NCBI RefSeq assembly: GCF_014879975.1
Contig: NZ_CP062501.1
Span: forward strand, 1,860,001 to 1,924,000
Origin: Vibrio bathopelagicus
Lineage (GTDB): Bacteria > Pseudomonadota > Gammaproteobacteria > Enterobacterales > Vibrionaceae
Direction of reading: 5' to 3'
DNA: 64,000 nt
Part shown: in pieces, positions 51,932 to 54,724 of the stretch
How positions within the stretch are numbered: the stretch's first letter is position 1
How the letters are laid out: each line of letters begins with the position of its first letter
The notes under the pieces: generated by a model
The model's input: only the letters and a program-made list of their open reading frames with translations
Told to the model about the DNA's origin: nothing
The model's database searches: none
Made by a program: the position numbers and the translations under genes

Positions 51932-52050
51932 ATAAAAAATCCCCGGCGATAGGAGCCGGGGGGAAGATGGGGAAAATGAGTCTGACGTATGCCTGCGACC
52001 AAACTCCCCCGAAACCTCATCTAAAGCTGATGTCCTAGTTGAGGGATTGG
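51932..52050 (-). ncRNA. Candidate structured RNA, copy A
   Basis: On the minus strand, three hairpins lie in a row. The first pairs CCTCA with TGAGG and CTAGG with TTTAG. The second pairs GAGTTTGG (complement of 51999-52006) with TCAGACTC (complement of 51978-51985). The third is a terminator, CCCCGGC and GCCGGGG at 51941-51961, followed by a T-run on the minus strand. Several pairs are G-U on the minus strand and would be mismatched C-A on the plus strand, so transcription is minus. The same three-hairpin design recurs at 53278-53400. The 5' end is not known. Confidence 0.6.
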
Positions 52051-52108
52051 CAAATGGTTGTTGAAATATCGTGTCTTACTCTGTTAAATATACAATCAGA
52101 GAGAGTCA

Positions 52109-52234
52109 TCATCGATCGTCAATGTTCTGCTTGATCATTCGATAAATCAGAAATGCAGCGACAATGCATAGAACACTCATCACGATGCTGCTAATACAAA
52201 GAAAAACGTAAATTGGTTCCACTTCTTCTCCCAT
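52109..52234 (-). CDS. 41-residue small membrane protein
   Basis: An ATG at 52234 has GGAGAG five bases upstream and opens a 41-codon frame ending in TGA at 52109. The start reads MGEEVEPIYVFLCIS, and residues 8-31 are one hydrophobic helix followed by a basic RMIKQNIDDR tail, a typical single-span small membrane protein. The frame was too short for ordinary ORF finding. It is 59 bp upstream of structured-RNA copy A on the same strand and may share its transcript. No family is recognised. Confidence 0.6.
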   Translation of the reverse strand: MGEEVEPIYVFLCISSIVMSVLCIVAAFLIYRMIKQNIDDR

Positions 52235-52303
52235 CACTCTCTCCAGAAATAAGCCTTGTTGACTCCAACACCTTCAATAACACACTAATATTTAATGATA
52301 CTT

Positions 52304-52322
52304 TAAAGGTCAACACCCTTTA
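52304..52322. promoter_or_regulatory. Inverted repeat 1 of a TetR operator set
   Basis: TAAAGG-N7-CCTTTA at 52304-52322. Arms are perfect and the 7-bp spacer equals that of the other two sites. Confidence 0.55.
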
Positions 52323-52393
52323 TTTGATCGTGGTTTTTGTTTTATCGCTAATTATTTATTAGCCAAAGCCAACGAACTGTTGTTACACCCTCC

Positions 52394-52418
52394 AAATAAA
52401 GGTCGTCGCCCTTTATTT
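52394..52418. promoter_or_regulatory. Inverted repeat 2 of a TetR operator set
   Basis: AAATAAAGG-N7-CCTTTATTT, a perfect 9-bp inverted repeat. It is the strongest of the three related sites. Confidence 0.65.
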
Positions 52419-52539
52419 TCAAAGTCTACGTTTAGTCAAACTTATCGTCAAGCTACTTCGTAACCAAAAGTCAGAATAGCCGCTCAACTCTATTGGAGTT
52501 GGATTCCTAAATTTGAATATAGAGTCACCCCTTTCAAAA

Positions 52540-52562
52540 AATAAAGGTTAACAACCCCTATT
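52540..52562. promoter_or_regulatory. Inverted repeat 3 of a TetR operator set
   Basis: AATAAAGG-N7-CCCCTATT has the same left arm and spacer as the two other copies, with two mismatches in the right arm. It lies about 180 bp before the TetR start. Confidence 0.5.
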
Positions 52563-52742
52563 CTATGTGCTAAATGTATAATTTCAATAGCATGATCTCG
52601 ATGAGGCATGTTTGAGCCCATTGATATTCAGTGACTTAACGAGCGATTGTATCGCAAGCTTTGTGCCTTTATTCTACGGCCTGTTACTGCTTATTATCGA
52701 TGGCACATAAAAACAACCATCATCCAACATTCGGAGGCAAGA

Positions 52743-53189
52743 GTGGGAAGAGCAAGCGCTGCACAAGCGATTATTACACGACAGAAAATTATCGATGCTG
52801 CATTTGATATTGCACTGCATGAAGGTTTCGACAAGGCAACCTTTGCTTATATCGCAAAAAAAGCTGGCGTGTCTAAATCAGGGATTAACGCCCACTTCGA
52901 CAGAAAAGCCGATATTGCCAAAGAACTCGAGCCTCTGTTTGCAAAGATTATCAATGAGCACTTAAGCTATGAATCAACCAGTGCCTTTTCAAAAACATGG
53001 CAAAAAGCCATTGATAACGAACCTAGCTTTGTAGCAGCAATTGTGGCATTTGGCCCGATTATGCCAACCGAGAAAGGCATCAAAGGGCTGCAAGCTAAGA
53101 TCCAAGGTGAAGAACAAGAAGTGCTCGACTGCATCTACCATTGTATCGGCTATGCAGTTTGTAATATTCAACCTCACCAATCAGCTTAA
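52743..53189 (+). CDS. Short TetR-family regulator
   Basis: I start the gene at the GTG at 52743, with GGAGG five bases upstream. A TTG at 52647 would add 32 poorly conserved residues. The 148-residue product has the TetR helix-turn-helix (ITRQKIIDAAFDIALHEGFDKATFAYIAKKAGVSKSGINAHF) followed by a short helical ligand domain. Most TetR proteins have about 190 residues, so the C-terminal domain is small or truncated. It could autoregulate through the three TAAAGG repeats upstream. The effector is unknown. Confidence 0.8.
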   Translation: MGRASAAQAIITRQKIIDAAFDIALHEGFDKATFAYIAKKAGVSKSGINAHFDRKADIAKELEPLFAKIINEHLSYESTSAFSKTWQKAIDNEPSFVAAIVAFGPIMPTEKGIKGLQAKIQGEEQEVLDCIYHCIGYAVCNIQPHQSA

Positions 53190-53277
53190 TTCACCTTCCC
53201 TCATTCTGCAGATTTAATCAATAAAGCACTCGGTTTCCACTTTCCTGCACCTGATTGCCCGTAAACAAAATTACCCC

Positions 53278-53400
53278 AAAAACAAAAAGCCCCGGTTATA
53301 GGAACCGGGGAAACAGGGTGGGAGGAGTTTGGTGCGTGCCCGTAAACCAAACTCTCCCCAAGCCTCACCTAAGACTCATGCTCTTAGGTAAAGGATTCGC
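53278..53400 (-). ncRNA. Candidate structured RNA, copy B
   Basis: On the minus strand directly after the puuD stop, ACCTAAGA and TCTTAGGT form hairpin one (53367-53389). GAGTTTGGT and ACCAAACTC, extended by GGGA and TCCC around one bulge, form hairpin two (53320-53358). CCCCGGTT and AACCGGGG form a terminator (53290-53310) followed by a T-rich run. Copy A has the same order and shares the minus-strand core TGAGG-x-TT-GGGG-GAGTTTGGT. It is either a 3'-UTR element of puuD or an independent RNA. I do not recognise it as a named RNA family. Confidence 0.62.
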
Positions 53401-53404
53401 ATCA

Positions 53405-54724
53405 TTATTGAAGCGTAGCGCCTTGCTCTACCCAAGTGCCGATGAGTGCGCGTTCTTCGTCGGTCATTTGAGTCATGTTGCCGAGCGGCATCACCTTGGT
53501 TGTTACGGTTTGAGCAACAATCCTTGGGACGTTGGCTTTGATCTCTTCTGGCGTATCAAACATTACACCCGCAGGCGCAGCAGCAAAAGCGGCGTGACTA
53601 GGGGTTGAAGAGTGACACACAGAACAGCGCTCTTGAATGACCTTGTTGATGGTTTCAAAGCTGACTCCTGCGCTAGCGGTTTGAGCTGCGTGGTCTGCTG
53701 GTAAAGCTGGAGCATCAGTTGTAGTTGAAGCAGTATCGATTGAAGCAGCCTCTTCTACCGTCGATTCAGTCGCGCTTACTTGCACTTCTTGAACGACTTG
53801 CGCCTGTACAACTGGGGTCATCTGTTTTTTCGCGTAAGGTGAAGTCACAAACGCAAGAGTGATCATACCCAATGCCGCGACTGGTACTGTCCATGCAAAT
53901 TTCTGACTACCGTGACGGGTGTTGAAATAGTGACGCACCAAGATACTGAAGATCGCTAGGCCAGCAAGAATCAGCCAGTTGTATTCCGAGCCATAAGTGC
54001 TTGGGAAGTGGTTACTGATCATGATGAACAACACTGGCAGTGTCATGTAGTTGTTGTGACGAGAACGCAGTAGACCTTTCGCTGGCAATGCCGGATCCGG
54101 TTCGCGCTTCTCTTCAATCGCTTTCACTAAATTACGTTGTGCAGGCATGATAACTCGGAATACGTTACCCACCATGATGGTACCAATGATTGCACCCACA
54201 TGAATGTAAGCACCACGGCCACTGAACACTTGAGTTAGGCCATATGTCGCAGCGACGAGCAGCACAAACAGCACAACGCCAAGCAACACTGGGGTTTTAC
54301 CTAATGGTGAGTCACACAGTAGGTCGTAGATAAACCAACCGGCAACGAATGAACCAATACCAATCGCAATTGCAGTGGTTGAATCAAGACCAGAGCCCGG
54401 TGCAATCAGGTAAATCTCAGCGTTAAGGTAGTAAACCACACCCAGTAGACACACACCGGTGATCCACGTGAAGTAAGCTTCCCATTTGAACCAGTGCAGG
54501 TGCTCCGGCATCTCTGGCGGTGCAAGTTTGTATTTTTCCAGGTGATAAATACCACCACCGTGAATTGCCCATAAGTCGCCAGAAAGGCCCGTTTTTGGGT
54601 TTACTCGGTTAAGGTTGTTCTCTAACCAAACAAAGTAAAATGATGCGCCTATCCACGCAACACCAACAATCATGTGAGCCCAGCGTATTGCTAAGTTCAA
54701 CCACTCTGTAATATGCGGATCCAT
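53405..54724 (-). CDS. puuD: Urate oxidase/hydroxylase PuuD with C-terminal cytochrome c domain
   Basis: PuuD oxidises urate to 5-hydroxyisourate. The start is the ATG at 54724 with AGGAG six bases upstream, giving 439 residues. The first 300 residues form eight or so membrane helices of the urate-oxidase N-terminal family (WAHMIVGVAWIGASFYF, GGGIYHLEKYKLAP, SNHFPSTYGSEYNW). A linker of about 50 residues rich in Ala, Thr, Val and Glu leads to a cytochrome c domain, with heme motif C367-SV-C370-H371 and likely axial M412 (KVMPLGN). The heme domain passes electrons to the respiratory chain. First in the order puuD-allA-alc-uraD-puuE, it is the last gene of the minus-strand operon. Confidence 0.92.
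   Translation of the reverse strand: MDPHITEWLNLAIRWAHMIVGVAWIGASFYFVWLENNLNRVNPKTGLSGDLWAIHGGGIYHLEKYKLAPPEMPEHLHWFKWEAYFTWITGVCLLGVVYYLNAEIYLIAPGSGLDSTTAIAIGIGSFVAGWFIYDLLCDSPLGKTPVLLGVVLFVLLVAATYGLTQVFSGRGAYIHVGAIIGTIMVGNVFRVIMPAQRNLVKAIEEKREPDPALPAKGLLRSRHNNYMTLPVLFIMISNHFPSTYGSEYNWLILAGLAIFSILVRHYFNTRHGSQKFAWTVPVAALGMITLAFVTSPYAKKQMTPVVQAQVVQEVQVSATESTVEEAASIDTASTTTDAPALPADHAAQTASAGVSFETINKVIQERCSVCHSSTPSHAAFAAAPAGVMFDTPEEIKANVPRIVAQTVTTKVMPLGNMTQMTDEERALIGTWVEQGATLQ

Follow-up and report, generated by a model that had tools for sequence, protein, structure and literature searches.

On the minus strand of the 64,000-nt stretch of DNA analysed here (the window, whose host contig measures 2.0 Mb in a genome of two contigs), the urate oxidase gene puuD is followed by a compact three-hairpin element, and a diverged second copy of this element stands behind a small ORF nearby. 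The question is what such an element does at the end of a urate-breakdown message, and how its second copy relates to it. Judged from sequence comparison, the RNA at the end of this message is probably a regulatory RNA. The features concerned, in window coordinates, are as follows.

53405-54718, minus strand: puuD, urate oxidase (Urate_ox_N), the gene that precedes copy B; its start is set at 54718 (54742 for the longest ORF).
53283-53396, minus strand: copy B, the three-hairpin RNA element in the puuD 3' UTR, placed by covariance model and genome comparison.
53311-53319, minus strand: unpaired linker ACCCUGUUU of copy B, a candidate pairing segment.
53290-53310, minus strand: stem-loop of the copy B terminator, with a T-run behind it.
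52701-53189, plus strand: TetR-family regulator, located between the two copies; its start is an assumption (52647 for the longest ORF).
52109-52234, minus strand: 41-aa small ORF upstream of copy A, with no Pfam match, in 9 of 227 Vibrio genomes.
51934-52047, minus strand: copy A, a diverged paralogue of copy B with the same three hairpins, in 8 of 227 genomes.
51941-51961, minus strand: stem-loop of the copy A terminator, likewise with a T-run behind it.

Both copies share one fold, in which two hairpins (1 and 2) precede a CCCCGG terminator and its T-run. The first-pass annotation had described the same order of elements in two minus-strand copies, and this arrangement is confirmed, with three hairpins in each and the boundaries refined to 51934-52047 and 53283-53396. 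Likewise, copy B had been placed a few bases behind puuD and copy A behind a 41-codon gene; from the coordinates, the gap between the puuD stop codon and copy B is 8 bases and that between the 41-codon ORF and copy A is 61 bases. The two copies are 70.8% identical over 120 bases, and the core previously noted as shared, TGAGG-x-TT...GAGTTTGGT, is found in both. In hairpin 1 the two copies agree best in the 3' arm and in hairpin 2 in the 5' arm, with two differences each; the partner arms carry four and five differences, respectively. In the linker before the terminator, copy A mostly has CCCCAUCUU where copy B has ACCCUGUUU.

Folding energy gives no strand call, because the plus strand scores similarly: the z-scores against dinucleotide shuffles are -2.52 (copy A) and -3.94 (copy B) on the minus strand and -2.22 and -4.11 on the plus strand. 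The call for the minus strand comes from the pair changes between the copies, which stay standard there. Between copy A and copy B of G018, 11 of 30 pairs differ and all 11 are still standard on the minus strand; eight have turned into G-U, two have gone from G-U to G-C, and one is altered on both sides. The earlier claims that pairs are kept despite the divergence, and that the G-U pairs of copy A would be mismatched on the plus strand, both hold: all 30 consensus pairs are standard in copy A, and each of the eight copies A contains seven to nine G-U pairs, equivalent to A-C on the plus strand. This strand argument is stronger than the covariation statistics. The covariation set comprises 28 distinct sequences with 834 pair cells, 99.3% of which pair, compared with 32.5-56.0% when the partners are slid by one to three columns; after shuffling within pairs, 98.1% still pair. 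Cells altered on both sides number 15 against 5.0 in shuffles. Meanwhile, among the 28 sequences neither the pairs with a both-side change (2 against 2.2 in shuffles) nor the further pair types (16 against 17.0) show an excess. The covariation score is 0.194 against 0.170 shuffled and is reached by none of 500 shuffles, an excess that kinship among the sequences can cause.

A covariance model, proposed at the outset as a check, was built from 27 sequences and run with a cut-off of E<=0.01. Homologues are found in 37 of 227 Vibrio genomes, 35 of which carry a near-complete copy B (>100 bits) and two only remnants (G121 and G216). Copy A occurs in 8 of the 227, all within the 35, and copy B stands without copy A in 27 genomes. 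Of 148 Vibrio genomes searched by BLAST, 23 yield copy B (E 6.7e-29 or lower) and 4 yield copy A (E 7.2e-51 or lower). In a search of Vibrionaceae, the matches again come from 37 of 329 genomes and from 1 of 13 genera, and no homologue beyond Vibrio appears at E<=0.01 among the 329 genomes, in a search whose filters may lose weak matches. In the element alignments, G121 is included in one and left out of two others, and G216 is in none. An exact-pattern scan of genome contigs returns 15 stretches, all in Vibrio: three in V. splendidus, one each in V. lentus, V. crassostreae, V. chagasii, V. fortis and V. profundi, and seven in other Vibrio; most of these form the Splendidus clade. A dispersed repeat of the REP or integron attC-like kind is ruled out, since no genome of the 227 has more than two matches above 90 bits; a third model match in G000 reaches only 20.5 bits.

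The statement that the element belongs to no named family holds for Rfam 15, where the whole window yields no match at the gathering threshold. The best sub-threshold matches are Yfr1 (21.5 of 38 bits), anti-hemB (21.3 of 49.5) and Esr41 (20.9 of 102), each of which includes the terminator and all of which lie well below the gathering scores. The literature searched yielded no paper on an RNA downstream of puuD; a survey of V. splendidus sRNAs (10.1261/rna.033324.112) may already list this one. The srvg23535 RNA of Vibrio alginolyticus is described in PMC6186989 as a 107-nt sRNA, reported conserved in V. splendidus, with its own promoter and downstream of rctB; it is not at puuD and is set apart by its location. 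The kind of RNA is already known, and what the element adds is an RNA family outside Rfam 15, linked to the catabolism of urate in marine Vibrio of a widespread group and accompanied by an unusual sibling copy. Its near-complete copies, deletion variants, puuD-less remnant and diverged sibling provide a natural series for following the passage from 3' UTR to regulatory RNA, and the same series suits asking how sibling RNAs change their pairing segments.

The conservation of copy B exceeds that of its coding gene and its surroundings, as in the class of 3' UTR-derived sRNAs. Relative to the copy in the window, copy B has an identity of 95.6-98.2% in 21 of the 22 genomes examined (78.8% in G077), whereas the fourfold sites of puuD are 46.5-88.7% identical in the same comparison. 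In G074 and its neighbours G009 and G031, copy B stands at 95.6-96.5% and the fourfold sites at 46.5-50.8%. In eight genomes, the stretch between the puuD stop codon and the element varies between species, and conservation begins abruptly just past the stop. Behind copy B, 10-30 more bases are common to many V. splendidus-like genomes and absent from V. fortis-like ones. With G077 and G169 set aside, 33 copies B remain, in which 18 of 117 columns are variable; the hairpin 1 arms, the pre-terminator linker and the terminator's 5' arm contain none of these. The linker ACCCUGUUU in G077 is identical to that of the 33 copies; such an invariant unpaired segment is more than a mere terminator should need. 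Deletion variants are also present. In G169 (L186:4237-4339), copy B has lost 11 bases spanning hairpins 1 and 2, which are thereby joined, and the puuD protein is 98.7% identical to that of the window. G216 has puuD and only the 3' part of the element, and G121 has no Urate_ox_N match and an element remnant with broken arms.

The element is closely tied to puuD, which lies directly upstream of copy B in all 35 near-complete copies among the 227 Vibrio genomes. Here puuD ends a gene block that begins with a polysaccharide-deacetylase-family gene and continues with those for OHCU decarboxylase, allantoicase and ureidoglycolate lyase; the tight spacing suggests that the urate genes form a single operon. 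On sequence, copy B lies at the 3' end of this predicted mRNA and shares its terminator, the position seen in 3' UTR-derived sRNAs. Urate_ox_N scores above its cut-off in 65 of 148 genomes, and all 23 genomes with strong BLAST hits to copy B are among them. In the other 42, a count that leaves out G071 (with a partial Urate_ox_N match below the cut-off), the best covariance-model score is 25.5 bits. On a tree of puuD C-termini with 67 rows (9 under half filled, G116 entered twice, and G216 labelled element-bearing despite its partial copy), the element requires 2 changes against a shuffled mean of 20.4. On this tree, many forks of which are weakly supported, 24 of 25 element-bearing rows cluster, with G077 apart. 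The neighbouring group holds 7 of 10 rows with another CCCCGG type, joined with modest support (93/78). Four other Vibrio genomes (L060:2764-2898, L061:2791-2925, L063:2791-2925, and after puuD in L065) share a distinct and well-conserved puuD 3' UTR that has several hairpins and a CCCCGG terminator; it may be a sister RNA or independent. In addition, the puuD of G163 (L195:2480-3813) gives two overlapping match pieces in different frames near the N-terminus, which suggests a frameshift.

Around copy B, no sigma-70-like match lies in 53068-53800, a region that includes the last 400 bases of puuD; the 2 kb scanned contain four such matches against 3.5 in shuffles. For copy A, three promoter-like matches are located upstream of the small ORF, with no excess over shuffles. 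A duplex scan of four segments against the starts of ORFs in the window at least 150 aa long (scored without accessibility, 100 letter shuffles) gives no significant hit, with best-hit p values of 0.90, 0.08, 0.79 and 0.77. Furthermore, the 10-base complement of the copy B linker occurs at 23 sites in G000 and G031, two of which are the element itself, and no other orthologous pair is found; the only site within 30 bases of an ORF start is antisense to a longer ORF.

With modest confidence, we favour copy B as a structured 3' UTR RNA of the urate transcript that is released by RNase E and acts in trans by base-pairing, with copy A as its sibling. Copy B would form the 3' end of the urate-degradation transcript, and RNase E would most likely cut near the puuD stop codon to release it. 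The three hairpins would keep the released copy B stable, possibly with ProQ or Hfq bound; ProQ prefers structured RNA. The separate RNA would then pair in trans, most plausibly via the linker ACCCUGUUU and the terminator loop, and urate breakdown would thereby also adjust other mRNAs. Copy A would be a sibling on the same scaffold, which arrived with or evolved in the TetR/small-ORF block, and the change in its linker suggests different targets. The explanation is supported by the conservation of copy B far above its neighbourhood and the keeping of its pairs by minus-strand G-U changes, by puuD upstream in every near-complete copy, the two tree changes and the mere remnant in G121, and by the missing sigma-70-like match, the invariant unpaired linker and precedents in V. 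cholerae. It is weakened by the negative target scans, by G169 and G216, which do without parts of the element, and by the two unexceptional covariation measures. The first-pass annotation had proposed an sRNA pair or a 3'-UTR-derived RNA; for copy B, derivation from a 3' UTR is the best-supported reading, given puuD in 35 of 35, the abrupt start of conservation, the lack of a promoter-like match in the region scanned and the intrinsic terminator, whereas the sRNA part is one that we infer.

A number of sRNAs derived from 3' UTRs are known to depend on RNase E in V. cholerae (PMC7398697 and the review PMC9438474). Like OppZ, CarZ and FarS as presented there, copy B is situated at the 3' end of a metabolic operon, starts close to a stop codon and takes its own end from the intrinsic terminator of the operon, and by analogy RNase E would be its expected maturase. 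Unlike these RNAs, it belongs to another operon and has a paralogous copy elsewhere in some genomes; the likeness is one of position, with no sequence relation claimed. RaiZ, a ProQ-dependent 3' UTR-derived sRNA, is likewise described as a fragment from a 3' end and of comparable length, about 122 and 160 nt (PMC9438474), but it comes from a different host gene, and for the present RNA ProQ is a possible partner.

A possible alternative, which we hold tentatively, is that the three hairpins work only in cis, as an elaborate terminator and 3' stabiliser of the urate operon mRNA or as a decay element bound by a protein, and do nothing in trans. A terminator-ended element directly behind puuD in all 35 copies, its decay in G121 where puuD is gone, and the target scans that found none are all consistent with a purely local role. 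Multi-hairpin 3' UTRs closed by a CCCCGG terminator likewise follow puuD in some other Vibrio (five were folded, z -2.71 to -5.59), yet several Vibrio puuD genes manage with an apparently plain terminator. A purely local role also fits poorly with the unpaired linker of copy B, as invariant as the hairpin 1 arms, and with a second copy behind an unrelated small ORF in eight genomes.

Within the 227 genomes, the 41-aa ORF is followed by copy A in eight of its nine occurrences (the exception is G121), and each of the eight copies A sits after this same ORF. The TetR gene adjoins copy B in all eight copy-A genomes, and in G211 copy A lies 13 kb away from copy B. In four of the eight, the DNA behind copy A matches the DNA behind copy B of block-free genomes; the match begins at the T-run in G152 and G219 (about 98 and 82 bases long) and 73-75 bases after copy A in G005 and G153 (>1 kb long). 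In the other four, no match above about 25 bases is found within 150 bases of copy A. Because of this resemblance, we infer that the block of TetR gene, 41-aa ORF and copy A (51934-53277) was probably inserted directly behind copy B or, if the direction is reversed, lost in the other genomes; the first-pass annotation had not noticed that copy A is part of such a block. The DNA behind copy B is itself variable, and stretches shared with other genomes resume about 50 to >2000 bases after it.

An extended and doubtful proposal makes both copies sibling regulators, in which copy B would couple urate breakdown to other genes and copy A, brought in by a TetR/small-protein module that settles right behind copy B, would mimic its shared G-rich arms and terminator loop, competing for or redirecting its partner via a new pairing segment; the RNA gene would double as an anchor where accessory modules recombine in. 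It is improbable that the copies are simply a recombination footprint, that is, a repeat on either side of an inserted cassette of TetR gene and small ORF, for which the fold is a secondary matter. The match behind copy A in four of eight genomes, from the T-run in two, is what such a footprint could leave; however, the other four have no match above about 25 bases right behind copy A, copy B is conserved in the 27 genomes without copy A, the copies at about 71% identity are too divergent for fresh flanking repeats, and the base pairs of the fold are preserved. A small protein encoded across the element is very improbable, and coding on either strand is ruled out: short ORFs do span both copies on both strands, and the plus-strand frames of copy A and some copies B look similar by eye, but the hairpin-2 loop of copy B is 11 bases long in 12 of the 35 copies, 12 in another 15 and 13 in the remaining 8, so the frame shifts, and the plus-strand ATG is missing in 7 of 35.

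Between the TetR gene and the small ORF, the interval 52305-52420 contains two inverted repeats of the type AATAAAGGG...CCTTTATT, which are possible operator sites.
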